20,657 nucleotides of DNA from a virus. The stretch covers positions 1 through 20,657 of the IMG/VR virus record IMGVR_UViG_3300030102_003715. The stretch is one strand, 5' to 3'. Of this stretch, positions 1,854 through 19,387 are shown one piece after another (position 1 is the stretch's first letter; every line of letters starts with the position of its first letter). The notes under the pieces were generated by a model that saw only the letters and a program-made list of their open reading frames with translations, had not been told where the DNA came from and did no database searches. A program made the position numbers and the translations under genes.

Positions 1854-4800
1854 TTGAAATTCGCACACATCGCGGACACACATATCCGCAACTTAAAGTA
1901 TCAAAAAGAATATCGTGCAGTATTTGAAAAGCTGTACGAAACTCTAAAAGAAGAAAAAGTAGATTACATTATTCACTGTGGTGACATCGCTCACACAAAG
2001 ACGCAAATTTCTCCTGAATTTGTAGAGCTATGTTCGGACTTTTTTCGAAACCTAGAGTCAATCGCCCCAACATATATTATTCTTGGGAATCATGACGGCA
2101 ACTTAAAAAACAATAATCGTCAGGATGCTCTTACGCCTATTGCAGCCGCGCTTGATTTGCCTAATCTGCATCTCCTAAAGAAGTCGGGCGAGATCGAATT
2201 AGAAGGTGGTTATTGCCTAAATGTTCTTTCGGTATTCGATGAGGATAATTGGGTCAGCCCATCAGATGACAGTAAAGTTAATATCGCTCTCTATCATGGA
2301 TCTATTTCTGGGGTCACGACCGACACGGGCTGGGTGATGGATCACGGCGATCACACACCAGAGATCTTTAAAGATCATGACTTTGCATTCTTGGGCGATA
2401 TTCACAAGACTAATCAAATTATTGATACAGAAGGTCGCGTCCGATATTGTGGCTCAACAGTTCAACAGAATCATGGCGAATCTAATGACAAGGGGTATCT
2501 TATCTGGGATATTCAGGATAAAGATAAGTTTACATGCAAGCACGTCAAGCTACTAAACCCCAAGCCATTTGTAACTATCGAGCTGACCAAAGACGGCAAG
2601 ATTCCAAATAATATCCTTGTGCCAGTTGGTGCTCGTTTGCGAATTGTATCAAACAATAACTTGCCGCTTGTTAAGATGCGTAGAGCTTTAGAAGCCGCCA
2701 AGCATCGATATAAGCCAGAAGCGATCACATTCTTGAATAGAGCCGCTGGTCAGCGTGGTGACGTTAGCAAGCTTGCTCAAGAAATTAAGCAAGAGAATTT
2801 AAGAGATATTACGGTACAAGAAAAATTAATTTCTGAATACCTAAAAGACTACGAAGTGTCAGATGACACACTTCAAAAAGTATATGGGCTAAACCTTAAG
2901 TACAACAAGGTGGCTGAAGAACAAGAGGAGGTGGCTAGGAATGTTAACTGGAGCCTACAAAACGCAGCTTGGGATAACCTTTTTAATTATGGTGGCGGTA
3001 ATAACATTGACTTTTCAAAGCTCAATGGCATTGTTGGAATTTTTGGAAAAAACTATTCTGGTAAATCTTCCGTAATTGATAGCATTCTGTACACCATATG
3101 GAACTCTACTTCCAAGAACGAAAGAAAGAATCTGAACATTATCAACCAGAACAAAGAGTTGGGCTCAGGCAATGTTCAGGTGACAATCGGAGAGAAGACT
3201 TATAGTATTGTTAGGACTTCTGAAAAATATATTAAGAAGTACCAAGGCAACGAAACCACTGAAGCCAAGACGAATATTGACTTTTCGTGTCTCGATGAAG
3301 TCACACAGGAGACAACGAGCCTTAATGGACTTACAAGAAACGAAACAGACAAGAATATTCGAAAGGTCTTTGGCTCTTTGGATGACTTCTTGTTCTCGTC
3401 AATGTCCTCGCAACTAGATGCCTTGTCTTTCTTGAAAGAAGGGTCTACGAAGAGAAAAGAGATCTTTGCAAAGTTTTTGGATCTTGAGATATTTGAAAAG
3501 AAGTTTAAGCTTGCCAAGGGCGATGCCTCTGATCTTAGGGGGGCAATTAAGCGTCTGGAAGGCAGAGATTTTGCTGAAGAAATCAAGGAAGCACAGGATG
3601 TCTTTACGTCACACGAGCAGGAGCTAGAAAGTCAGCAACAAACGTGTGAAAGCCTCAAGGGCAAAATTGGCGTCGCTAAAGAAGAGCTTAGCAACATAGA
3701 GCAAAAGATCGACTCTATTCCAGTTGAGTTGGTCGATATTGCCCAAGTATTATCAGACATTGTTGAGCACACCAACGACCTTAATGATGCAAGAAGCAAC
3801 TTGGCTCGCCATGAGAAAGAATTGAAAGAAAAGAAAGAAGTCTTAGAAAAAGTAGCGACTTTCTTAGAAGATTTTAATATCGACGACGTTAGAGAAAGAA
3901 AAGAGAAATCAGTAGAAATTTCTCAGAGGATCAAAATCTTAGAGAAAGAACTAGAAATAATTAATAAGAAAATTTCTACTCTTGATGATCCGGGCTTCTT
4001 GAAGGGGTGCAAGTGCCTTCATGAAGCAGAAGAAGCTATGGAAGAAAAGCCAAGCAAAGACCAGCACCTACAAGACTTGAACAATAAGTTTACAGAATTA
4101 GATCCAGACGAAGCTGAACAAACGATAGGAAAGTTCAACGAACTTAGCAAAAGAAAGACAACTTTATCGGAAAGAATCTTAAAGTTGAATCTATATATCC
4201 AGCAAGACGAAAATAAAATTGACAATCTAGAAAGACAACTTGAAGTTTTGCATTCTAAGAAGAAAGGATATCAAGCTAACAAAGAGGCGATTGATAATTT
4301 AGAGAGCTTTCTAGTGGAGAAGAGAAGTAAAGAAGAGCACTTGAGCGACTTGAATGGTCAGCTTGACGCATGTCAGGCTACTATCATGAACCTCTACAAA
4401 GTGCATGGATCTTACGAAGAGAAACTAAACACACTCATCAGCCTACAGGCAGAGCTTGATGATTTAAGACAGGAGTATTCAGCTTATGATTTATTTATGC
4501 GGTGTATGCACAATAACGGGATTGCATACGATGTTATCAAAAAAAGGCTTCCGGCGATCAATGAAGAGATTGCTAAGGTTCTCGCAAACATAGTAGATTT
4601 CGAAATCTTTTTTGAGGACGATGGAAAGAGGCTTAACATTTTTATCAAGCACCCAAGTCACGAGCCAAGACCACTGGAGATGGGTTCTGGGGCAGAGAAA
4701 ACTATCGCTGCTATGGCTATTAGGCTTGCCCTGTTGTCTGTCTCTAGTCTTCCAAAGGGAGATGTGTTTATTCTTGATGAGCCGGGAACTGCTCTTGACG

Positions 4801-4955
4801 CAGATAACATGGAAGGCTTTGTTAGAATTTTGGATGTTGTTAAATCGTATTTTAAGACAGTTTTGCTTATCACGCACCTTGATTCGCTCAAAGACTGCGT
4901 GGATACACAGATAACAATTGATAAGGTTGATGGGTATGCTTTTATCAATCAATAA
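1854..4955 (+). CDS. 46/47-like fusion: Fused Mre11/SbcD/gp47-like nuclease and Rad50/SbcC/gp46-like ATPase
   Basis: A 1033-residue single chain that should process DNA ends for recombination-dependent replication and may help degrade host DNA. Residues 1 to about 330 are a calcineurin-type phosphoesterase: ADTH (D8, H10), CGD (D44), GNHD (N79, H80), YHGS (H148), GDIH (H184). A linker leads into the ATPase: Walker A GKNYSGKSS (G398-S406), then long Lys/Glu-rich coiled-coil arms (about 560-900) with an apex CKC at 719-721, the ABC signature GSGAEK (from 944), Walker B FILDEP (D975, E976) and the switch LLITHLD (H1008). In T4 and E. coli these are two separate proteins, nuclease gene and ATPase gene adjacent; here no stop or frameshift separates them. 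Start is TTG at 1854 with GGAGAGG 5-6 bases upstream. All catalytic motifs are intact; the hook departs from the usual CXXC. Confidence 0.9.
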   Translation: MKFAHIADTHIRNLKYQKEYRAVFEKLYETLKEEKVDYIIHCGDIAHTKTQISPEFVELCSDFFRNLESIAPTYIILGNHDGNLKNNNRQDALTPIAAALDLPNLHLLKKSGEIELEGGYCLNVLSVFDEDNWVSPSDDSKVNIALYHGSISGVTTDTGWVMDHGDHTPEIFKDHDFAFLGDIHKTNQIIDTEGRVRYCGSTVQQNHGESNDKGYLIWDIQDKDKFTCKHVKLLNPKPFVTIELTKDGKIPNNILVPVGARLRIVSNNNLPLVKMRRALEAAKHRYKPEAITFLNRAAGQRGDVSKLAQEIKQENLRDITVQEKLISEYLKDYEVSDDTLQKVYGLNLKYNKVAEEQEEVARNVNWSLQNAAWDNLFNYGGGNNIDFSKLNGIVGIFGKNYSGKSSVIDSILYTIWNSTSKNERKNLNIINQNKELGSGNVQVTIGEKTYSIVRTSEKYIKKYQGNETTEAKTNIDFSCLDEVTQETTSLNGLTRNETDKNIRKVFGSLDDFLFSSMSSQLDALSFLKEGSTKRKEIFAKFLDLEIFEKKFKLAKGDASDLRGAIKRLEGRDFAEEIKEAQDVFTSHEQELESQQQTCESLKGKIGVAKEELSNIEQKIDSIPVELVDIAQVLSDIVEHTNDLNDARSNLARHEKELKEKKEVLEKVATFLEDFNIDDVRERKEKSVEISQRIKILEKELEIINKKISTLDDPGFLKGCKCLHEAEEAMEEKPSKDQHLQDLNNKFTELDPDEAEQTIGKFNELSKRKTTLSERILKLNLYIQQDENKIDNLERQLEVLHSKKKGYQANKEAIDNLESFLVEKRSKEEHLSDLNGQLDACQATIMNLYKVHGSYEEKLNTLISLQAELDDLRQEYSAYDLFMRCMHNNGIAYDVIKKRLPAINEEIAKVLANIVDFEIFFEDDGKRLNIFIKHPSHEPRPLEMGSGAEKTIAAMAIRLALLSVSSLPKGDVFILDEPGTALDADNMEGFVRILDVVKSYFKTVLLITHLDSLKDCVDTQITIDKVDGYAFINQ

Positions 4956-6597: not shown

Positions 6598-7127
6598 AAG
6601 TTGTAAGAGGTCTGGCTCAGGCAGCAGCCAATGCTTATGACGGAGCCCTTGATGATGAGGGAAATCCAATTAAGATTGGCTTGAAAAGAGAGGAAGGTCA
6701 TCCCATCCATGATTCTCGAACTTTGGATGGCTTCAAGGTAACATTTTCTGGTCCACACATGATTGTCAATTATCAGGCTGAAATTAAGCTGAAAGAAGTT
6801 TATAGGGGCGGCTTTGAGTCTGAGATGGAGCAAATTATTGAAGACATTGTTTCTTTTTTGAAAAAGAGATATAGAAAAATAACGGGGGAAAGCGTTTCTT
6901 TGAAGGCGGATGGTGAAGTAAAAGTTATTGTTCAAAACACAAGCCGTGTCCGCACATTCTGTCAGGCTCACAGAAAATACATTATTTCTAGCCTTGCAGA
7001 GGTTCAGCCAATTTTGGAGCCGAGTGCAGGTGATTTGCAAGATGGGTTCCAGAAGTTTCTGGACCAAGGCGGCTTCCAAGGTAGCCGACCGGAGAATGAT
7101 TCGCGTAAAGTGAATAATGATTCATGA
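6579..7127 (+). CDS. Unidentified protein directly upstream of large terminase
   Basis: A 182-residue protein with a GGAG ribosome site 7 bases before ATG 6579. It looks alpha/beta: a helical start (LKVVRGLAQAAANAYDGA), strand-rich middle (FKVTFSGPHMIVNYQAEIKL), a charged helix (MEQIIEDIVSFLKKRYRKI), another strand segment, and a flexible tail overlapping terminase by 11 bases. In T4 the small terminase gp16 (164 residues) occupies this place, so that role is possible, but I see no helix-turn-helix or clear gp16 likeness. A head-tail connector or tail-completion role is equally possible. Confidence 0.7.
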   Translation: MSAESLKVVRGLAQAAANAYDGALDDEGNPIKIGLKREEGHPIHDSRTLDGFKVTFSGPHMIVNYQAEIKLKEVYRGGFESEMEQIIEDIVSFLKKRYRKITGESVSLKADGEVKVIVQNTSRVRTFCQAHRKYIISSLAEVQPILEPSAGDLQDGFQKFLDQGGFQGSRPENDSRKVNNDS

Positions 7128-8700
7128 TCTGTCAAAGAAGGAGATTGTTAAGGAAGTAGTCAAATCAGGAAAAGATCCTGTCTATTTCATTAACAACTAC
7201 TGCAAGATATCACACCCCTTAAAGGGCTTGATCCCTTTTAAGACATTTGATTATCAAGACAGTCTCTTGAACGACTTCAATGATCATCGATTTACAGTTA
7301 TTCTAAAAGCTAGGCAGTTGGGTATATCAACTATTGTTGCTGCCTATGTTGTGTGGCTTATGTTATTTCATCGCGATAAGAATATTCTTGTCATGGCGAC
7401 AAAGTTTAATACAGCAGCCAACTTAGTCAAAAAAGTAAAAGCGATCATGAGAAACCTGCCACCTTGGATTAGGATCGCAGACATCTCTGTCGATAATAGA
7501 ACCAGTTTTGAATTATCAAACGGATCTCAAATTAAAGCCACATCAACATCTGGAGACGCAGGTCGTTCTGAGGCTCTTTCTTTGCTTGTTATTGATGAGG
7601 CTGCTCACGTCGAAGGCTTAGAGGAACTTTGGACCGGCTTGTATCCTACTTTGTCTACAGGTGGTCGCTGTATTGCCCTGTCCACTCCCAACGGTGTTGG
7701 AAATTGGTTTCATAAGACTTACATAGAGGCTGAATTAGAAGACAATATGTTCAAGCCAATTAACTTGCCTTGGGATGTGCATCCTGAAAGAGATCAGGAG
7801 TGGTTTGTTAACGAGACAAAAAACATGTCTCGTCGCCAGATCGCACAGGAGCTTGAATGCAACTTCAATACCTCTGGAGAAACAGTTATCCATCCAGACG
7901 ATCTTGAGCGCATAAATCAGTTAATTACTGAGCCAAAGCACAGGACTGGCTTTGATAGAAATTACTGGATATGGGAAGAATATAATCCCGAAAACTCCTA
8001 TATGGTTGTGGCAGACGTTGCCCGAGGTGACGGTGCGGATTATTCTGTTTTCCATATTTTTAAGCTGGAGACAATGGAAATAGTTGCCGAATACCAAGGT
8101 AAGCCAAGTCTAGACATGTATGCGAATATACTCTTTCAGGTTGGGAAAGAATATGGTGATGCACTCATGGTTGTTGAAAATGTTGGCATAGGTATTTCTG
8201 TTCTTGAAAAGCTGCAAGAGTTAGAATATCCAAATGTTTATTTTTCTATCAAAGGCACGCACGAATACATTGATGCAAACAGTGCCCAGTTTAAAAATAA
8301 TGCAATCGCTGGTTTTACTACTTCTTCAAAGACAAGACCACTAATCGTTGCTAAGCTGGAAGAATTCATAAGAAACAAACTAATTACCGTATACTCTAAT
8401 CGTTTGTTTAACGAATTTAAAACATTTATATGGAACAATGGTAAGCCTCAAGCTATGCGCGGCTATCATGACGATTTAGTCATGTCATTAGCAATCGGAT
8501 GCTGGGTCAGAGATACCGCACTTACAGTAAACCAAAGAAACACTACATATAACAAAGCCCTGTTAGACACAATGATTTTCACAACATCAAGGATGAGCAC
8601 AAAAATACCGGGACAGATTGGCTACGATAAAGATATGGTTCAAAAAAGAAATGAAAGTATTTCACAACAAAAAGAATTTTCTTGGCTTTTCAAAGGATAG
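7117..8700 (+). CDS. 17: Terminase large subunit, gp17-like packaging ATPase/nuclease
   Basis: A 527-residue protein that docks on the portal, pumps DNA into the prohead and cuts the concatemer. The ATPase half has the variant Walker A ARQLGIST (65-72), Walker B LLVIDEAAH (D160, E161) and a coupling motif ALSTPNG (187-193). The nuclease half (RNase H fold) has VVADVARGDGADYS (D300), VVENVGIG (E354) and YHDDLVMSLA (D452, D453). Length is slightly shorter than T4 gp17 (610). The ATG at 7117 has no good ribosome site and overlaps the upstream stop by 11 bases, so coupled translation is likely. The portal gene follows after four bases. Confidence 0.95.
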   Translation: MIHDLSKKEIVKEVVKSGKDPVYFINNYCKISHPLKGLIPFKTFDYQDSLLNDFNDHRFTVILKARQLGISTIVAAYVVWLMLFHRDKNILVMATKFNTAANLVKKVKAIMRNLPPWIRIADISVDNRTSFELSNGSQIKATSTSGDAGRSEALSLLVIDEAAHVEGLEELWTGLYPTLSTGGRCIALSTPNGVGNWFHKTYIEAELEDNMFKPINLPWDVHPERDQEWFVNETKNMSRRQIAQELECNFNTSGETVIHPDDLERINQLITEPKHRTGFDRNYWIWEEYNPENSYMVVADVARGDGADYSVFHIFKLETMEIVAEYQGKPSLDMYANILFQVGKEYGDALMVVENVGIGISVLEKLQELEYPNVYFSIKGTHEYIDANSAQFKNNAIAGFTTSSKTRPLIVAKLEEFIRNKLITVYSNRLFNEFKTFIWNNGKPQAMRGYHDDLVMSLAIGCWVRDTALTVNQRNTTYNKALLDTMIFTTSRMSTKIPGQIGYDKDMVQKRNESISQQKEFSWLFKG

Positions 8701-8704
8701 ATAA

Positions 8705-10693
8705 ATGGCAGATCAAAGAAAAAATCCAGATAACAATGAGTCAGCTTTATTCAAGAGGCTAACACGGCTATTTTCTGGTCCGATAACAAATTACAGATCT
8801 CAGATGACCAGAGATTATAAAAGATCTCAGTTAGATTATTTTGCCCAGAGATTCCAGAGCGCAAGCGGTCAGCAGTTTAAGCGTAGCGGTTACAATCCTT
8901 TTGCACAATTAAATTCTTCTACTATGGCAAATCAGCGACGTTCTGAGAGATACGTCGATTTTGATCAGATGGAATACATGCCAGAGATTGCCAGCGCACT
9001 TGATATCTATGCCGATGAGATGACAACTCATTCTTCGCTACAGCCGATGCTGAACGTGAAATGCCCCAATGAAGAAATTAAGGCAGTCTTGACAACACTC
9101 TATCAAAACATTCTTAATGTCGAATATAACCTATTTGGCTGGTGCAGAACAATGTGCAAGTATGGAGATTTTTTCCTGTACCTAGACATTGATGAGCACA
9201 TGGGCATTAAAACGGTCATTGGCTTGCCATCGACAGAGATTGAAAGATTAGAGGGCGAAGACAAAACTAATCCAAATTATGTACAATATCAGTGGAACTC
9301 TGCTGCTATGACATTTGAAAATTGGCAGATTGCACATTTTAGGATTCTTGGCAATGATAAGTACACCCCTTATGGCACATCTGTTTTAGAGTCGGCACGA
9401 CGCATCTGGCGTCAGCTAACTCTTATGGAAGATGCGATGATGGCGTATAGAATTGTCCGCTCACCAGAGCGTCGAGTTTTTTATGTTGATGTCGGGAATA
9501 TCCCACCATCAGATGTTGAGCAATACATGCAAAAGGTCATGACTCAGATGAAGCGTAACCAGATTGTTGATAACAATACTGGTCGCGTTGACCTTCGATA
9601 CAACCCAATGAGTATCGAAGAGGATTATTTCATTCCAGTCAGAGGCGACAACTCTTCCAAGGTGGAGAACTTAGCTGGCGGTCAAAATACAAAAGACATT
9701 GAAGATGTTAAATATTTAAGAGACAAGCTGTTTTCTGCTCTTAAGATTCCCGCTGCGTATTTGACACAGGGTGACTCTGTAAACGAAGATAAGACTACGC
9801 TAGCGCAAAAAGATATTCGCTTTGCCCGGACCATCCAAAGGCTTCAGAGAGCGGTCGTGTCAGAGCTAGAAAAGGTTGGAATTGTTCACCTCTACACGCT
9901 CGGGTTCCGTGGAGATGATTTGCTCAACTTTAAACTCAGCTTGAACAACCCTTCCAAGATTGCTGAGCTTCAAGAGCTAGAGCACTGGAAGACCAAGTTT
10001 GATGTTGCGGGCGCAGCGACCGAGGGCTTTTTCAGTCGTCGTTGGGTTGCAGAGCATTTATTTAGCATGTCCGAGGAAGAATTCCTTAGAAACCAGAGAG
10101 AGATGTTTTATGATCGCAAATATGATGCCCAGCTTAATGCTGCTGGAGAAGCCGCTGGTGAGGCAGAAGCTGGTGCTGGCGGTGGAGATCTTGGCTTGGG
10201 TGGCGATGAAGGTCTTGGGGATGATCTTGGTGGTGACGAGCTTGATCTTGGAGGTGATGCTGCTGCCGGTGGCGATGCAGGAGGCGCTGAAACGCCCGCT
10301 GCCGAACCGGAAGGCGAAGATGATGTGCTTCTGGCAGCACCCGGTAAGCGAGACGTTCCAAAGGTGCAGGTCGGAGAGGACGGATCGTATATTACACCGG
10401 GCTCAAAGGGCAAGGCATACACACCAGCTAAGAGGGATAAGCGTCCTGCCGGGGCTAGAACTAGGTCTTACGATAGAATCGCAAACCCTGAGTTTAACAC
10501 CAAGAGAGCGATATTCAAAGGAGCCGATGGTTTAAAGCGTCTCAGTAATGGGATTTATACAGAAGAGCGGTCTACTTATGAAGAGAGGCAGCAGCTTCAA
10601 GAAGCTAGATTATTTGAAGTAAACCACGAAATTAATAAGCTTATAGAAGGCATGGAGTCAGCAACAAATGACAAAAAAGATGAGACACAATAA
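8705..10693 (+). CDS. 20: Portal vertex protein, gp20-like
   Basis: A 662-residue protein that should form the dodecameric ring through which DNA enters and the tail attaches. Portal-like features include the N-terminal region with FARYVDFDQMEYMPEI-type composition (RSERYVDFDQMEYMPEI, around 77-93), the membrane-like clip/stem region with ARRIWRQLTLMEDAMMAYRIVRSPERRVFYVD, split here as ARRIWRQLTLMEDA and YRIVRSPERRVFYVD (about 230-262), and KIPAAYLTQG (about 347-356). It is longer than T4 gp20 (524) because of a C-terminal extension: an acidic Gly-rich segment at 478-540 then a basic, probably flexible stretch. ATG at 8705 has AAGGA upstream. Next to terminase and followed by other head genes. 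Confidence 0.93.
   Translation: MADQRKNPDNNESALFKRLTRLFSGPITNYRSQMTRDYKRSQLDYFAQRFQSASGQQFKRSGYNPFAQLNSSTMANQRRSERYVDFDQMEYMPEIASALDIYADEMTTHSSLQPMLNVKCPNEEIKAVLTTLYQNILNVEYNLFGWCRTMCKYGDFFLYLDIDEHMGIKTVIGLPSTEIERLEGEDKTNPNYVQYQWNSAAMTFENWQIAHFRILGNDKYTPYGTSVLESARRIWRQLTLMEDAMMAYRIVRSPERRVFYVDVGNIPPSDVEQYMQKVMTQMKRNQIVDNNTGRVDLRYNPMSIEEDYFIPVRGDNSSKVENLAGGQNTKDIEDVKYLRDKLFSALKIPAAYLTQGDSVNEDKTTLAQKDIRFARTIQRLQRAVVSELEKVGIVHLYTLGFRGDDLLNFKLSLNNPSKIAELQELEHWKTKFDVAGAATEGFFSRRWVAEHLFSMSEEEFLRNQREMFYDRKYDAQLNAAGEAAGEAEAGAGGGDLGLGGDEGLGDDLGGDELDLGGDAAAGGDAGGAETPAAEPEGEDDVLLAAPGKRDVPKVQVGEDGSYITPGSKGKAYTPAKRDKRPAGARTRSYDRIANPEFNTKRAIFKGADGLKRLSNGIYTEERSTYEERQQLQEARLFEVNHEINKLIEGMESATNDKKDETQ
10136..10324 (+). 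repeat. Low-complexity acidic Gly/Ala/Asp segment within the portal gene
   Basis: Encodes residues 478-540 of the portal, with imperfect repeats such as GDLGLGGDEGLGDDLGGDE and GGDAAAGGDAGGAE. The DNA shows reiterated GGTGATG/CTTGG units, so length may vary between relatives by slippage. Probably disordered and surface exposed. Confidence 0.75.
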
Positions 10694-12489: not shown

Positions 12490-13107
12490 ATGGGAAAACA
12501 ACTTTTACGAGAATATTATGAATTATGTGAAGGCGGCATTTGCCAAGATCTACTGACCGAAGCCGAGAAAAAGTATGTGGCAGAGGGCGGTATGATTTTG
12601 TCTGGCTGTATGCAGAAGTACGACACGCCAAATGGCAACGGTCGTGTCTATCCTGAAAGTGTCCTTCGCAGAGAGATTAAAAACTATATGAAACTTGTGG
12701 ATGAGAGAAGGGCTCTTGGCGAACTTGACCATCCAGATGATTCAGTTATTAACTTAAAAAATGCATCCCACATGGTTACACAAATCTGGTGGGACGGCAA
12801 CGCTGTTATGGGCAAGGTTAAAGTTCTTAACACCCCATCAGGCAAAATTTTACAAGCTCTTGTGAGGGACGGCTGCAAGCTCGGTATCTCTTCTAGGGCT
12901 CTTGGGTCGCTTGACGAATCAAAGGGGCATGCCGTTGTCCAAGAAGATTTGCAATTGATTTGCTTCGACTTTGTTTCAGAGCCGTCCACACCGGGCGCTT
13001 TCATGAGCGTTGGTGCTAGCATGAACGAAGGCAAGCAGCCAAACGTATTTACAAAAGCAGACAGAATTAATAGGCTGCTTAATGACATTGTGGGAGACCA
13101 TGAATAA
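12490..13107 (+). CDS. 21: Prohead protease, gp21-like
   Basis: A 205-residue serine protease that should cleave scaffold and capsid proteins during prohead maturation. GELDHPDD supplies the catalytic His (H81), GISSRALGS the Ser (S134 or S135), and ICFDFVSEPSTPGAFM the conserved acidic strand (about 157-172), matching T4 gp21 and related assemblins. Residues 22-25 read LTE|A, a site of the T4 type, so an N-terminal propeptide of 24 residues may be removed by self-cleavage. ATG 12490 follows AGGA by 8 bases; its stop overlaps the next ATG (TAATG). Confidence 0.93.
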   Translation: MGKQLLREYYELCEGGICQDLLTEAEKKYVAEGGMILSGCMQKYDTPNGNGRVYPESVLRREIKNYMKLVDERRALGELDHPDDSVINLKNASHMVTQIWWDGNAVMGKVKVLNTPSGKILQALVRDGCKLGISSRALGSLDESKGHAVVQEDLQLICFDFVSEPSTPGAFMSVGASMNEGKQPNVFTKADRINRLLNDIVGDHE

Positions 13108-14567
13108 TGGATCGAAAACTATTAGAAGAAATTATACTTGAAGAGTTTGGGCAATTGGACGAGGGTATTCTTGACAAAATTAAGAATGCTTTCTCAAGAG
13201 CCTTCATGAGCAAAGACCAGAAATTCCTCTCTGACTTTGAAAAAAAGAACCCAAGTCTTAAGATAGATGACGAGAAGGACTTGCAAGCTCTTATAGATAC
13301 CTCAAAGCAAGTGGGCGGGCTTTCGCCAGATGGGGAAAGATATCTTAGCATGAAAAAAGCCGAGTTTAACGCAGCAGCAGCAATGAAAAAGTTGGACGAT
13401 AGCTTGCCAGATAATGTTGCACACGGAAACAATCCGTTGCCTTACGACGTGACAAATCCTCCAGTGCTTTTGGATCCCATAACAATGTTTGGAACATATG
13501 GGTTTGTTTGGGATTATGGAGCTTCTACAACTGGCAAAAAGCCCAAGAAATACAAAGCAACTAACGCTGCCGGTGCAAGACTTTTCTACAAGCAGCGCTG
13601 TAGACAAGGGCTGGTTATGTATTGTCCTAGCCGCTTATATGTGGGTGGCTCCCCCACTCCTGTGGATGGTGAACCACCAAGCACAGAGCCACCAGTAGAA
13701 GGAGAGCCGCCTACAGGTCCTAAAGCAAGCCCTGATGTGCCCCTTTCCATTTACAAGCGACAAAAAGATGAGCCAAGCCTTCGAAATGCTCAGGGCACAG
13801 TCGAGATGCCTCTTGTCACATACATGCAGAAGAAGCTCAATCTAGGACCAAAAGCCACGCAAAGAATCCTTAAAGGACTCGTTGGCACTCTTAAATCAAG
13901 AAACATTCCAATTGCAGAATCGCAATTGAAAGAGCTAACGATACTTGTCGAGGAGACAACTGAAACCTTCTTTAAGAGACGTGGAACGCCGGTTAAGTTT
14001 GATCCTAGAGAGTATACTAAGTTCCTCAAGCGACTTGGCAAAGACCGAGCTAAACTTAAAGCCTCTATTCCTGAGCTAGAGAAAGAGCTTGAGGACGCAA
14101 AAAAGAATCCCGCTTACATGGGCGCAAATATCCAGTTAGCCCAGAATGCTCTCGCTCAAGCCAAAAAGCAGTTGGGAGATTTTGAAAAAGATGCTGAAGC
14201 TGGGGTTGCAAGACAAAAAGGCATGAAGGCGGACCAAAAAGCTAAGAGAAAAGAAATTGAAGCAAAAGCCAAGAAGATGCCACTTGTTGGTCGTGTCCTT
14301 ATGACATATGCAGCACGATCTGGATCAAGAGCGGGAGAGTATGACAAAGCTTTCTTTGACGCTCTTGGAGATGAGAAAAAACAAAATAGAATCATCAAGA
14401 ATATTGAAAAGATTTTACGTCGCCAGATGAGAAGACGCGGATACGAAGACTCTCAGATTAAGGCAGCACTCAAAGAGGGTGTTCTTAGTGGCGTACTTAC
14501 GGAGTCAACCGAGACCTCCATTATTGATGAGACAATTAAAGAAATGAAAAAGGCGAGGTTGTTTTGA
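13107..14567 (+). CDS. Unidentified 486-residue probable head protein
   Basis: Starts at ATG 13107 coupled to the protease stop. The N-terminus is acidic and helical (LLEEIILEEFGQLDEG), which contains LDE|G, a possible prohead-protease site. The middle has a Pro/Glu/Gly-rich linker (about 180-215, PPSTEPPVEGEPPTGPK), then a long charged coiled coil (about 315-395) and a basic C-terminal part (ILRRQMRRRGYEDSQ, LLF-type end KKARLF). Two domains joined by a Pro-rich hinge are therefore likely. No catalytic motif is recognised. Position suggests a core or internal head protein; DNA contact is possible given the basic end. Confidence 0.75.
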   Translation: MDRKLLEEIILEEFGQLDEGILDKIKNAFSRAFMSKDQKFLSDFEKKNPSLKIDDEKDLQALIDTSKQVGGLSPDGERYLSMKKAEFNAAAAMKKLDDSLPDNVAHGNNPLPYDVTNPPVLLDPITMFGTYGFVWDYGASTTGKKPKKYKATNAAGARLFYKQRCRQGLVMYCPSRLYVGGSPTPVDGEPPSTEPPVEGEPPTGPKASPDVPLSIYKRQKDEPSLRNAQGTVEMPLVTYMQKKLNLGPKATQRILKGLVGTLKSRNIPIAESQLKELTILVEETTETFFKRRGTPVKFDPREYTKFLKRLGKDRAKLKASIPELEKELEDAKKNPAYMGANIQLAQNALAQAKKQLGDFEKDAEAGVARQKGMKADQKAKRKEIEAKAKKMPLVGRVLMTYAARSGSRAGEYDKAFFDALGDEKKQNRIIKNIEKILRRQMRRRGYEDSQIKAALKEGVLSGVLTESTETSIIDETIKEMKKARLF

Positions 14568-14971
14568 AGAAAGCAGAACTAAAAAATATGTTGAAGCCTC
14601 TAGTAAAAGAGTGCATTAAAGAATGTCTTTTTGAAGAAGGCGTTCTTTCTTCTGTTGTGTCAGAAGTTGTTAAAGGCATGGGCACAACTGTTATAAAAGA
14701 AGAAGTGGCACCGCCTGTCTTTACAAAGCCGGTGCGACAACAGCCAAGCAACAACGGGGCTCTAAAAGAGCACAAGCAAAAGCTTTTAGATGCGATTGGC
14801 AAGGATGCATATGGCGGGGTTGATTTATTTGAGGGCACAACCCCAGCAGCAGCACAGCGGTCGCCGGAATTGGCTAGCCCTCTTGGTGACGTTGATTCAG
14901 ATGATCCCGGTGTTGATATATCGGGCATTGTTGCATTGGGCGGAAAAAATTGGAAAGCTTTTATGGGCTAA
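14564..14971 (+). CDS. Unidentified small protein of the head gene run
   Basis: A 135-residue protein starting at TTG 14564, which overlaps the preceding TGA (TTGA). The N-terminal half is an amphipathic helix pair (KKAELKNMLKPLVKECIKE and FEEGVLSSVVSEVVKG), the rest is flexible, ending in VDISGIVALGGKNWKAFMG. As I recall, proteins with a KKAELK..LKP..KECIKE start are common in marine phages beside protease genes, unassigned. The start choice rests on the MKKAELK reading and coupling, since no strong ribosome site is present. Confidence 0.7.
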   Translation: MKKAELKNMLKPLVKECIKECLFEEGVLSSVVSEVVKGMGTTVIKEEVAPPVFTKPVRQQPSNNGALKEHKQKLLDAIGKDAYGGVDLFEGTTPAAAQRSPELASPLGDVDSDDPGVDISGIVALGGKNWKAFMG

Positions 14972-14999: not shown

Positions 15000-15446
15000 A
15001 TGTCAGTTTTTGAAAAATATGGCGTTGGGTTCAACAACGTTGGTTCTTATCAGGCAAGCGCAAGACCATTTATCACAGCTTCTTGTGATGTTCCTGCATC
15101 TGGCTCGAACATGGCTTTAGCTTTTGAGGTTAAATTTCCAAAGGTTACCAAGTTTGTTACCATTCGACACGACGGCAATGACACAGTTTCAGATGCCAAT
15201 ATGTCAGACATGCGCTTTGCGTTTGCTTCTGGTGGCTTGGGACCAGCACACAACTATGTGACACTGGAGCCTTCTGCTTCCTATACCGCAGATTTTAGGG
15301 TGACACGAGTCTACCTCATGAATGACGGTAATGGATCAGGAAACACCATTGGCAAGGCAACTGTCATCGCAGGGCTTACGCAAATTGAGGCTACGCACTT
15401 GTCAGAGGGCTGGGAGCACGTTGATGGCGTCGGACCAACTGACTGA
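15000..15446 (+). CDS. Unidentified beta-rich probable virion protein
   Basis: A 148-residue protein with AGAGGA just upstream of ATG 15000. It is rich in Gly, Ser, Thr and Val, has few charged residues and reads as alternating strands (AFEVKFPKVTKFVTIRH, ADFRVTRVYLMND), typical of small capsid decoration or fibre-base proteins. No family is recognised. Its stop overlaps the next ATG (TGATG), so it is likely made with the DNRLRE-like protein. Confidence 0.7.
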   Translation: MSVFEKYGVGFNNVGSYQASARPFITASCDVPASGSNMALAFEVKFPKVTKFVTIRHDGNDTVSDANMSDMRFAFASGGLGPAHNYVTLEPSASYTADFRVTRVYLMNDGNGSGNTIGKATVIAGLTQIEATHLSEGWEHVDGVGPTD

Positions 15447-16147
15447 TGCCAGTTAGCACTATCACGCCTGCTGGTGATTCATCTTTCGCCGCCCCTACTA
15501 AAACTGGCTCCGATTGGACAACAGTTATTGGTGCCTCCGAAGCGGGCTCTATCTTTGATCCCGGTGCCACTGATACTATGTTCCAGACTAGGCTATCAAG
15601 TGGCACTTTTACAAATCGTCGCGGTTTCATGTATTTTGACTTAGCAGCCAGCGGGATCCCTAAGAAAGCACAATTTTTAAAACTTAGAAAGGCACAGCTA
15701 AAGTTAACCTTCTCTAATCGAGGCGGGGATGCAAACGGGACGAAGTTTAAAATTTTTGCTTTGAATGCAAAAAACGCTGGATTCGATCCTCATGTTGAGG
15801 ATTATGATAATTACCTCTCTAATATATCTTCGGGAATTTTTGATGCATCAGCGACCGGAGAACTTACTTTTAATATTAGGCAAGGCAGACTACTTCGTTG
15901 GCTAGAGTCAAAAATAAGAAGAAGATCGGATCTTTATTTAATGGTCAGGGCTTATCATGATATACAAGATGTGGACCCAACCGGGACCAACCGGGCTATA
16001 TTTCGAAGCCCAACTTACGGAACTGCCTCTGAGAGACCCAAGCTTGTTCTTCAGTACAAGGTAACTAATGAGCGCATGTCTGCTGGAGGTGGATTTAGTA
16101 GTGGAAACATAATCACTCCTAGTAGAAATGGATTTGGAAGATTTTAA
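15446..16147 (+). CDS. DNRLRE-like beta-sandwich virion protein
   Basis: A 233-residue protein. The core pattern resembles the DNRLRE/CBM96 domain: a T-x-x-x-x-G start with FQTRLSSG, then RGFMYFDLAASGIP (59-72), KLRKAQLKLTF (79-89) and a closing ERPKLVLQYKV (196-206) before a Gly/Ser tail. Such domains form jelly-roll sandwiches in secreted or surface proteins. A head fibre or decoration role is inferred. It contains the short DNA direct repeat ACCAACCGGG/CCCAACCGGG near 15975. Confidence 0.6.
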   Translation: MPVSTITPAGDSSFAAPTKTGSDWTTVIGASEAGSIFDPGATDTMFQTRLSSGTFTNRRGFMYFDLAASGIPKKAQFLKLRKAQLKLTFSNRGGDANGTKFKIFALNAKNAGFDPHVEDYDNYLSNISSGIFDASATGELTFNIRQGRLLRWLESKIRRRSDLYLMVRAYHDIQDVDPTGTNRAIFRSPTYGTASERPKLVLQYKVTNERMSAGGGFSSGNIITPSRNGFGRF

Positions 16148-16159
16148 TAAGGAAATATA

Positions 16160-16405
16160 ATGTCATACCGAGATAGAAAGTTCATGCCAAAAGGCAATAA
16201 GCCGTCGCATGTAACAGTGACGCCAAAGAAAAATGAAAACCCAGAGAGATTAATTAAAAGGTTTATAAGAAAAGTTAAGAAGTCTGGAGTAATGGAAGAG
16301 TTGAGAGAAAGGCGTTACTATGAAAAGCCCTCCGTTAAGAGAAGAAAAAAGCGAAAGCAGCGTGACAGAGTTTTGCGAAAGTTGGCTGAAAAGGCACCTC
16401 AGTAG
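16160..16405 (+). CDS. rpsU-like: Ribosomal protein bS21 homologue
   Basis: An 81-residue very basic protein. Residues 18-75 follow the bS21 pattern: a short strand VTVTPKK, then ENPERLIKRFIRKVKKSG (25-43), VMEELRERRYYEKPSVKRR (44-62; YEKPS is the family hallmark) and a Lys/Arg-rich helix. bS21 sits on the 30S subunit near the anti-Shine-Dalgarno region and affects initiation; phage copies are known and are thought to replace the host protein late in infection. The N-terminal 17 residues extend beyond the usual start. AAGGA precedes ATG 16160. It lies between virion genes and the scaffold gene. Confidence 0.88.
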   Translation: MSYRDRKFMPKGNKPSHVTVTPKKNENPERLIKRFIRKVKKSGVMEELRERRYYEKPSVKRRKKRKQRDRVLRKLAEKAPQ

Positions 16406-16485: not shown

Positions 16486-17517
16486 ATGTCATCATTATTG
16501 GAACAGGCTATCGTAGATGCTAGCGCTCTAAAAGAAGCCGCTCTTAAGAGTGCAGAAAGCTCTATCTTAGAGAAGTACGCACCTGAGATTAAAGACGCAG
16601 TTTCTGCCTTACTTGAGCAAGAAGATGAGCTTGGCATGGCACCCATGGCACCCATGGCTGGTGCAGAGACGGATAGCGCTGTGGTTGATGCAGCCAGAGA
16701 GGGCATGAAGCTTTGCCCATGCCCCGACGACAACGAAGAGGTTGAATTTTCGTTTGAAGAGTTGAGGCAGGAAATCGAAGATGAGCCACCCGCAGAGGAA
16801 GCGCTTGAGGAAGAAGTCAACGAAGAAGAAGATTACGCCCTTACAGAAGAAGTTTTAGAGGCTCTTCTGGAGGCTGAAGATGATGAAGCCGCCGAAGAAG
16901 AAATTGTTGAGGAGGAGGTCGAGATTACAGAAGAAAATCTTGACTCCATCCTTGAAGAACTTATTGTGGATATCAAGCCACAAAAGAGTGGCTGGGCAGG
17001 AACCCCGGCTTCTGTTATGGATTTTAACGCTGAGCTTGAGCTTGCTAGACTGGCGTCTACCGAGGCTCAGCAGGAAATTGAAGATATGAAACAAGCTCTT
17101 GATAATGTCAAGAAGGACTACGCTCAAATTAGCGAAAGTTATAAAAATGTCCAAGCTAAAAACAAGACGCTTGTTAACACAGTTTCTGGCTTGAAGGAGA
17201 AGCTTGAAGAAGTTAATCTCTCGAATGCCAGATTGTTTTACACGAACCGTGTGCTGAATAGTGACTCCCTGAATGAGCGGCAAAAGAATAGAATTGCCGA
17301 AGCTATTTCAGAATCTCGTTCTGTAAATGAGGCGAAAGTTATTTATAACACGCTTCAAAACGCAGTGGGCTCCTCTTCTGTGAAGAAAGGACCAAAATCG
17401 CTGAGTGAGGCTGTTAATAGAAACACGCCTTTGGTGGCTCGTCATGGGTCATCAAGCAGTGCTGATAACACGCAAGTTGAGCGTATGCAAAGACTTGCTG
17501 GAATTAAAAACAAATAA
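16486..17517 (+). CDS. 22: Prohead core scaffolding protein, gp22-like
   Basis: A 343-residue, strongly acidic protein that should form the inner core on which the capsid assembles and then be cut up by the protease. It has an Ala/Glu helical start, a MAPMAP repeat, a very acidic block (about 79-160, many EEE runs), a coiled coil (about 180-245, QQEIEDMKQALDNVKKDYAQ) and a conserved-looking ending ERQKNRIAEAISE with LAGI near the C-terminus. Several L-x-E sites suit protease digestion. ATG 16486 follows GGAG by 8 bases. Direct adjacency to the capsid gene (15 bases) matches the T4 order 22-23. Confidence 0.85.
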   Translation: MSSLLEQAIVDASALKEAALKSAESSILEKYAPEIKDAVSALLEQEDELGMAPMAPMAGAETDSAVVDAAREGMKLCPCPDDNEEVEFSFEELRQEIEDEPPAEEALEEEVNEEEDYALTEEVLEALLEAEDDEAAEEEIVEEEVEITEENLDSILEELIVDIKPQKSGWAGTPASVMDFNAELELARLASTEAQQEIEDMKQALDNVKKDYAQISESYKNVQAKNKTLVNTVSGLKEKLEEVNLSNARLFYTNRVLNSDSLNERQKNRIAEAISESRSVNEAKVIYNTLQNAVGSSSVKKGPKSLSEAVNRNTPLVARHGSSSSADNTQVERMQRLAGIKNK

Positions 17518-17532
17518 AAGGAGGACTATTAA

Positions 17533-19329
17533 ATGTCTGTTTTAGAAAAACTTACAGAAGGTATTGTTAATAGAGATCTCCGTTCAGAAGGTGCTGCTCT
17601 TCTCACTAAGTGGGAAAGAACAGGACTTCTGGAAGGTCTCGACACGGACCGCACCAAGCACACGATGGCACGTTTGCTGGAAAACCAAGCTAAGCAACTT
17701 CTCAAAGAAGCTGCCGGTTCGTCTATGGCGGCTGGCGACGTTGAGGGTTTCGCAGCCGTGGCTTTCCCAATCGTTCGTCGCGTCTTTGGCGGTCTAATTG
17801 CTAATGATCTGGTTAGTGTGCAGCCTATGAGCTTGCCATCTGGTCTGATCTTCTTCCTCGACTTCACGTTCGGGGATACTCGTCTCGGTCAAACCGATGG
17901 CGATTCACTCTACGGTCAGGGTGTTGTTGGTCAAGAGTTAACTGGCGGCGTCTCTCTTACTGGTGATAACGCTAGTAAGGGTCCATACAACATGAACAAC
18001 GGGTTTTCTTCGCCTACAAGTTCGATTGCGTTCAAGGGCTTGGAGCTTATCGCTTCTGGTGTTGTGGGTACTCCGGGTGATTCTACCTATCCTACCACAC
18101 AAGCTGCAAATGACACGCTCAATAAGCTTGTTAATTTCGATCCTGATCTTCAGGGCAAATCGGTTGTTGTTGCAATGGTCACTGGCTCTGCGACTCTTAG
18201 TCAGTTCAACACCCGAGACTTTGTTGCGCTCGCCTCTGATCAGGGTGCGGCGTCTCCGGGTCGCCTTGTGCGCCACCTGACCCAGATCAACTCTGGTTCC
18301 GCAGGTAATGCACCGGGTGAGGCAATCTACAAGATGCAGCTTGTCTTTGAGGCGACTGGTTCGCAGGTGCTTGATAACGGTGCAGCCACTACGGGTGACC
18401 AGAATTCGCTTCTGGGCATGATCACTGGTTCGCACGTTAAGAGCTTTGGGTTCCCAATTGCTGACAACTTCAATGGTACGCCAACTGCTGGTTCGGATGA
18501 GGCACTTGGTGCGATTCGGGCAACCACCACTTGGGGTCTTGAGGACCAAGAGGCGATCCCAGAGATCGACATCAAGGTTGACTCCGTGAGCGTTACGGCT
18601 ATCACCAAGAAGCTGAAAGCGAAGTGGACCCCTGAGTTAGGTCAGGACCTCAACGCTTACCACAACTTGGATGCCGAGGTTGAGCTTACTAGCATTCTGT
18701 CTGAGCAGATTGCTCTTGAGATTGATCGTGAGATCCTTGAGGATCTTATTAAGGGTGCTACCGCTGGTACGTTCTACTGGTCGCGCTCGCCGGGTCTGTT
18801 CGTGAACAGAACTACTGGTGCTGAGATTGGTGCATCTTCGGCTGCTCCTGACTTCACTGGTACTGTTTCCGAGTGGTACGAGACCCTTATCGAGACCATC
18901 AATGATGTGTCCGCTCAGATCCACCGCAAGACTCTGCGGGGTGGTGCTAACTTCGTGGTGACTTCGCCCGAGGTTGCAAACATCCTTGAGTTTACGGCTG
19001 GCTTCCGAGCAAGCGTCACTGCTGATCAAGACAGTGGTACCATCGGTGCTGTGAACGTTGGTTCGCTCTCCAAGAAGTTCGACGTGTACGTCGATCCTTA
19101 CTTCCCCCGGAACGTGCTTCTGGTCGGTCGCAAGGGTAACAGCTTCCTTGAGTCGGGCTTCGTCTACGCTCCGTATGTCCCACTTCAGGTCACGCCGACT
19201 ATCTTCGGTGTCGAGGACTTCGTGCCCCGTAAGGGTGTCATGACTCGCTACGCTAAGAAGATGGTGCGTCCTGATATGTACGGTCTGGTTATCTGTCGCG
19301 GTCTCCTTGGTGAGTCTGGCGCAAGCTGA
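17533..19329 (+). CDS. 23: Major capsid protein, gp23-like
   Basis: A 598-residue HK97-fold capsid subunit. The segment IVRRVFGGLIANDLVSVQP (80-98) followed by MSLPSG corresponds to the T4 gp23 stretch with VRR...L...D...VQPM..P.G. An LKE|A site (57-60) upstream fits removal of a propeptide of 59 residues, close to the T4 cleavage after residue 65. The C-terminal half includes TFGVED-type FGVEDFVPRKG and KKMVRPDMYGLVICRG. AGGAGG precedes ATG 17533 and a strong terminator follows. Its third codon positions are visibly richer in C and G than the neighbours, as expected for a very highly expressed gene. Confidence 0.95.
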   Translation: MSVLEKLTEGIVNRDLRSEGAALLTKWERTGLLEGLDTDRTKHTMARLLENQAKQLLKEAAGSSMAAGDVEGFAAVAFPIVRRVFGGLIANDLVSVQPMSLPSGLIFFLDFTFGDTRLGQTDGDSLYGQGVVGQELTGGVSLTGDNASKGPYNMNNGFSSPTSSIAFKGLELIASGVVGTPGDSTYPTTQAANDTLNKLVNFDPDLQGKSVVVAMVTGSATLSQFNTRDFVALASDQGAASPGRLVRHLTQINSGSAGNAPGEAIYKMQLVFEATGSQVLDNGAATTGDQNSLLGMITGSHVKSFGFPIADNFNGTPTAGSDEALGAIRATTTWGLEDQEAIPEIDIKVDSVSVTAITKKLKAKWTPELGQDLNAYHNLDAEVELTSILSEQIALEIDREILEDLIKGATAGTFYWSRSPGLFVNRTTGAEIGASSAAPDFTGTVSEWYETLIETINDVSAQIHRKTLRGGANFVVTSPEVANILEFTAGFRASVTADQDSGTIGAVNVGSLSKKFDVYVDPYFPRNVLLVGRKGNSFLESGFVYAPYVPLQVTPTIFGVEDFVPRKGVMTRYAKKMVRPDMYGLVICRGLLGESGAS

Positions 19330-19357: not shown

Positions 19358-19387
19358 AACCCGCTCTCTTCGGAGAGCGGGTTTTTT
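19358..19387 (+). terminator. Strong Rho-independent terminator after the capsid gene
   Basis: AACCCGCTCTC (19358-19368), loop TTCG (19369-19372), GAGAGCGGGTT (19373-19383): an 11-bp perfect stem closed by the very stable UUCG tetraloop and followed by a six-T run (19382-19387). It should end the head operon transcript. Confidence 0.93.

Follow-up and report, generated by a model that had tools for sequence, protein, structure and literature searches.

A ribosomal protein bS21 with a conserved N-terminal extension is encoded within the head gene cluster of the IMG/VR virus record IMGVR_UViG_3300030102_003715, of which we analysed 20,657 of 23,547 bases (hereafter, the window). The identity of the gene is confirmed, and many aquatic phages have previously been described as carrying it among their head genes. 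The novelty, which is well supported, lies in the extra tail, strongly conserved and confined to a phage subgroup where bS21 occupies a different spot in the capsid cluster; taken as a whole, the description as a known kind of gene with a new variant trait is well supported. On balance we consider it probable that this is an old head-module bS21 of T4-like phages, likely made late, which would replace the host bS21 on the 30S subunit and support initiation on late mRNAs bearing Shine-Dalgarno (SD) sequences. The features of the gene are as follows.

16160..16405, + strand: bS21 (rpsU-like), 81 residues, recognised by PF01165, phrog_21469 and PDB bS21 chains by sequence and fold
16160..16207, + strand: N-terminal extension MSYRDRKFMPKGNKPS, not in ordinary bS21 (alignment; ratio of nonsynonymous to synonymous polymorphism, pN/pS, 0.028)
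16149..16153, + strand: SD-like AAGGA, 6 nt 5' of the ATG, identified from the sequence (predicted anti-SD pairing -6.2 kcal/mol)
16256..16270, + strand: K33-R37, aligned with E. coli R17-R21 (basic columns 33, 34 and 37)
16319..16333, + strand: YEKPS motif, residues 54-58 (columns 53-58 nearly invariant in the alignment of relatives)

The gene is a single open reading frame (ORF) with an ATG start, and it is the sole bS21 in the whole 23,547-base record. Its product matches Pfam Ribosomal_S21 (PF01165) with 63.1 bits against a cut-off of 27 (E 2e-17), residues 19-72 covering positions 1-54 of the 55 in the profile, and the second profile match is PHROG 21469, 'ribosomal protein S21' (E 1.4e-11). 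Of the 43 chain sequences that a PDB sequence search gave up to E 1, nearly all are bS21. The AlphaFold2 model has a mean predicted local distance difference test score (pLDDT) of 82, with about 49 for the first ten residues, and a Foldseek search with this fold returned bS21 chains from three ribosomes as the top three matches, at weak E-values of 0.05-0.44. These results bear out the initial annotation, made from the letters alone, which had called the gene bS21 from its YEKPS hallmark, indeed present, and had named a profile search beforehand as a possible refutation; that search gave a bS21 match across the whole domain. In E. coli bS21, R17 and R21 contact the SD of the mRNA (PMC10123108). 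They correspond to K33 and R37 of the window protein, so that the SD-contacting residues are kept, and the positions of K33, R34 and R37 are basic in 32 of 32 aligned bS21 relatives.

When the NE of 'KKNE' is aligned to the NE of 'RENE' in E. coli bS21, the window protein is approximately 16-17 residues longer at its N-terminus, in agreement with the unusual addition remarked on in the initial annotation. At least 13 residues precede the bS21 core in 14 of 50 distinct lineage members, and in the remaining ones the protein starts at the core or no more than 10 residues before it. The extensions mostly begin with MSY, MGY or MAY and have a high content of Arg, Lys and Asn. In a set of six close relatives, codons 2-17 display many synonymous changes and a single Phe/Tyr exchange, with a pN/pS of 0.028 compared with 0.118 for the bS21 core, figures that are descriptive rather than a test, the pairs sharing ancestry. 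SD-like sites stand ahead of the MSY start in the window and in most extended relatives, which, together with the purifying selection on codons 2-17, argues for translation from the upstream start. The extension is thus well supported as a real, translated trait that appears to be under strong purifying selection.

The extension also tracks an altered gene order, with no exception where the order is readable. Two genes define this order.

14564..14971, + strand: orf135, conserved, directly before bS21 in relatives without the extension (synteny)
15000..15446, + strand: orf148, 5' of bS21 in the extended form and 3' of it in the short form (synteny)

Where orf148 was found, it lies upstream of bS21 in all eight extended forms and downstream in all 25 short ones. 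The distance from the start of the orf135 match to the start of bS21 is approximately 890-2300 nt in the 12 measurable extended forms, compared with 367-483 nt in all 36 short forms. Neither the capsid-protease tree (approximately unbiased test, p-AU 0.91) nor the bS21 tree (p-AU 0.28) rejects a single clade of extended forms. The extensions of two loci, L190 and L198, have no MSY start and sit on long branches of the bS21 tree, so these two may not belong with the extended group. No mention of an N-terminally extended form was found in the available text of published accounts of phage bS21, supplements excluded.

The surroundings of the gene show a T4-like head order on one strand: terminase large subunit (TerL), portal, prohead protease, bS21, scaffold-like gene and gp23 capsid. 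The head-cluster setting described in the initial annotation holds, since TerL, the gp20 portal, the S77 prohead protease and the gp23 capsid protein all match their families, and bS21 lies only a few genes from each of them.

7117..8700, + strand: terminase large subunit (PF03237, phrog_2)
8705..10693, + strand: portal protein, gp20-like (PF07230, 268.7 bits)
12490..13107, + strand: prohead protease, gp21-like, S77 (PF03420, 101.7 bits; phrog_207)
15446..16147, + strand: orf233, no family match in profile searches, ending 12 nt 5' of bS21
16486..17517, + strand: scaffold-like acidic gene with T4 gp22-like placement, named from position and composition, no family match over the cut-off; 80 nt separate it from bS21
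17533..19329, + strand: major capsid protein, gp23 (PF07068, 249.2 bits; phrog_138)

A scan with the window bS21 gave 73 viral loci, with head-cluster genes related to those of the window around all but three. At L073 and L074 (5875-6294), where no window head-cluster genes were recognised nearby, the bS21 domain is part of a longer ORF of about 139 residues with N- and C-terminal additions. To avoid starting-point bias we anchored a second survey on capsid proteins instead of bS21 and asked for bS21 between protease and capsid; the scans kept the best 80 matches, so that the counts are samples. Among the matches listed, bS21 was present in 18 of 18 protease-capsid intervals of the window lineage, and likewise in two distant groups, in 28 of 37 intervals of the one retrieved together with Microcystis phage Mel-JY01 and in 22 of 31 of the one retrieved together with the huge phage LR756508, and every bS21-bearing locus had it on the capsid strand; some loci counted as lacking bS21 may carry one too divergent for the profile. 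No bS21 was found in the whole genome of Flavobacterium phage immuto (L155, MW353176), though its capsid and portal place it among the closest cultured phages. A tblastn search of annotated phages with the window bS21 returned no match, though Mel-JY01 has the gene, which reflects a failure of sensitivity and not absence.

The phage uses SD signals: predicted anti-SD pairing before the 23 genes of the window averages -6.7 kcal/mol, compared with -3.8 when the upstream regions are shuffled and -2.8 in stretches taken at random, and each of the 50 lineage members shows strong SD use. At the position of Tyr54 of Flavobacterium johnsoniae bS21, 0 of 50 lineage members have an aromatic residue, the window protein having Arg. 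A link between an aromatic residue 54 and SD-less phage genes was considered and discarded, the overall difference vanishing within the distant group of phages (p 0.39). In five loci of that group (L327, L347, L255, L346 and L336) the genes are nearly devoid of SD signal (-1.4 to -2.1 kcal/mol), which suggests hosts that do not use SD; at the Tyr54 position the bS21 of these loci nevertheless carry Arg in place of an aromatic residue.

These observations, a bS21 with its SD contacts kept, fixed in synteny, with a tail under selection and in an SD-using phage, are the ground for the function we propose. The protein would be a long-standing resident of the head module in a large T4-like phage lineage, probably made late in infection together with the head proteins. 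It would take the place of the exchangeable host bS21 on the 30S platform, beside the anti-SD tail of 16S rRNA, and so may support translation initiation on late phage mRNAs, which are abundant and bear SD sites. In the window subgroup the gene stands apart from orf135, in most cases near the scaffold gene, and has a basic N-terminal tail. This tail most likely adds rRNA or mRNA contacts at the mRNA exit, because in E. coli both the SD helix and the 3' end of 16S rRNA are contacted by the N-terminal part of bS21 (PMC10123108). Late production, suggested in the initial annotation, is plausible given the shared strand, the 12-nt gap to the upstream gene and the late transcription of other bS21 phages (PMC9723584); in those lake phages bS21 is highly transcribed along with core structural genes, and the bS21 region is not one operon. 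Ribosomes of E. coli take up the bS21 of Pelagibacter phage HTVC008M (PMC6375957), and in Francisella the loss of one bS21 homolog alters which proteins are made (PMC9578407). The steering of host ribosomes towards phage messages, which the initial annotation named as a possibility, has been put forward in the literature as a hypothesis and not as a result; selectivity for phage mRNA in this phage is something we only infer.

Several points weigh against this proposal. In the sole activity assay, performed in a foreign host system, ribosomes with phage bS21 gave approximately 5% of normal protein output in E. coli (PMC6375957). No SD type obviously separates the phage mRNAs from those of an SD-using host, which leaves selectivity without a visible basis. 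Within the lineage, bS21 and capsid distances are uncorrelated (rho 0.04, p 0.30), which at this scale leaves strict vertical descent undemonstrated.

A simpler function would be supply without selectivity, where phage bS21 keeps ribosomes replete once host rpsU expression stops and all mRNAs are translated. The core, close to bacterial bS21, and the intact SD contacts agree with this, but it leaves unexplained a lineage-specific tail that is constrained more strongly than the core, and we hold it to be possible but unlikely. Going further than our proposal, the extended form could be a specialised phage ribosomal protein whose basic tail, having arisen in the subgroup with altered gene order, extends to the mRNA exit and makes ribosomes favour phage late mRNAs, giving a virus-made specialised ribosome in an SD-using host; we put this forward only tentatively, as a rather unlikely case. 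That the protein instead makes ribosomes poor on host mRNAs, with inhibition of host translation as the main effect, would fit the low activity of HTVC008M bS21 ribosomes in the E. coli in vitro system (PMC6375957), but that value came from a foreign-host test, late expression among head genes is the wrong timing and the phage's own genes carry ordinary SD signals, all of which make host shut-off very improbable. The protein might also be virion cargo, a basic protein that its tail directs into the head and that is injected to act at the onset of the following infection; of the functions weighed here this seems the least likely. L/I-X-E is the consensus of the T4 prohead protease, and such a site, as in the targeting peptides of T4 internal head proteins, occurs in 0 of 14 extensions; moreover, short-form relatives hold the gene in the cluster without any tail. 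These points outweigh the position of the gene between protease and scaffold genes, the occurrence of the tail where the gene is mostly nearer the scaffold gene, and the naming of encapsidation as a possibility by Chen et al. (PMC9723584).

An alternative concerning origin and not function is that host rpsU was captured several times independently at one tolerant spot of the head cluster. Mizuno et al. infer several virus-host exchanges (PMC6375957), the two phage groups are placed apart in the free bS21 trees, and the lack of bS21-capsid distance correlation within the lineage points the same way. On the other side, the position and strand of the gene are constant across loci, and the window lineage forms one clade of 28 rows in the bS21 tree (Shimodaira-Hasegawa approximate likelihood-ratio test, SH-aLRT, 95-98). 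Furthermore, in this tree of 60 columns, with bacterial rows being those most like the window protein, holding all 44 phage rows as one clade against 61 bacterial rows gave a likelihood above that of the free search (p-AU 0.85, not rejected). Repeated capture therefore seems doubtful to us, and a single old acquisition is allowed, not proven, by the higher likelihood of the constrained clade. Congruence between bS21 and capsid distances was discarded as a sign of vertical descent, the value over all 100 loci (rho 0.67) mainly reflecting the split between the two groups. Length-matched protease blocks do correlate with the capsid within the lineage (rho 0.24-0.54, above bS21), and the incongruence of bS21 may possibly derive from exchange among phages or from loss of signal in a fast, short protein.

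The initial annotation had expected bS21 phylogeny to suggest the host, which fails here: the bS21 of the lineage form a clade apart from the sampled bacterial ones, and the nearest bacterial rows are weakly supported. Those nearest the lineage clade (L108, L138 and L149) are from Dehalococcoidia and another bacterium (SH-aLRT 83), and represent a lead to a Chloroflexota host, no more. Since Bacteroidota ribosomes fail to recognise SD sequences (PMC9976891), the SD use of the phage argues against a Bacteroidota host. The C-terminal RLY/KLY motif that marks gamma- and betaproteobacterial bS21 (PMC7550191) is not in the window protein, which speaks weakly against such hosts. A cyanophage was also considered, with no sign of one, psbA and psbD being found in none of 14 records (13 related contigs and Mel-JY01).

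Among candidate expression signals, the T4-type late promoter TATAAATA has no exact or one-mismatch site just 5' of bS21, and over the whole window its sites occur at the level of chance (26 found, 21.3 expected). At 16134-16161 lie sigma-70-like hexamers that overlap the start codon and so cannot drive a transcript of the full gene; their regional count is at chance (11 versus 9.6). A hairpin 3' of bS21 is unconvincing (z -1.7). Directly 3' of the capsid gene, at 19358-19383 (+), a strong hairpin of 11 pairs, 7 of them G-C, stands before a T run and resembles a terminator. Elsewhere in the window, one ORF of 1033 residues at 1854-4955 (+) fuses an SbcD/gp47-like nuclease (phrog_100, residues 1-451) and an SbcC/gp46-like ATPase (phrog_77, residues 303-1027), a pair encoded by two genes in T4; tblastn matches covering both parts were found in Mel-JY01 and LR756508.

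Among viral ribosomal proteins bS21 is the commonest, and the present lineage shows it as a fixed head-module member in an SD-using setting, so that models of anti-SD blocking drawn from Bacteroidota are not the whole account. The tailed clade beside its tail-less sister phages offers a natural comparison for the role of the tail on the ribosome.

Phage bS21, its ribosome incorporation, its protease and capsid neighbourhood and its late transcription in Bacteroidetes phages have been described by Mizuno et al. (2019; PMC6375957) and Chen et al. (2022; PMC9723584). In the 900 published bS21 phages of Chen et al., from diverse hosts, protease and capsid genes, where nearby, are typically 2-4 genes away (PMC9723584). 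The lake Bacteroidetes jumbo phages of that study likewise have bS21 beside TerL, portal, prohead protease and capsid, with a proposed role in late translation, but theirs runs on the opposite strand and is aromatic at the Tyr54 position, whereas the window gene is on the same strand, encodes Arg there, and belongs to an SD-using phage with an N-terminal tail. HTVC008M and 1310 bS21-encoding viruses (PMC6375957) are further cases of bS21 encoded by aquatic myoviruses; the HTVC008M protein has 67 residues compared with 81 in the window and resembles that of its alphaproteobacterial host most closely, whereas the bS21 of the window lineage identify no host. The cultured Microcystis phage Mel-JY01 (PP395634) has an annotated RpsU (WWT39311.1) between its prohead protease and capsid genes, on the same strand as these; its capsid is 36% identical to that of the window and its bS21 approximately 43% identical over 49 residues, with a short N-terminus (MFDTTYGINP) unlike the window extension. 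Finally, the uncultured huge phage LR756508 (484 kb), with a capsid 39% identical to that of the window, carries an unannotated bS21 on the same strand directly before scaffold-like and capsid genes, a very divergent form without YEKPS and without the tail.
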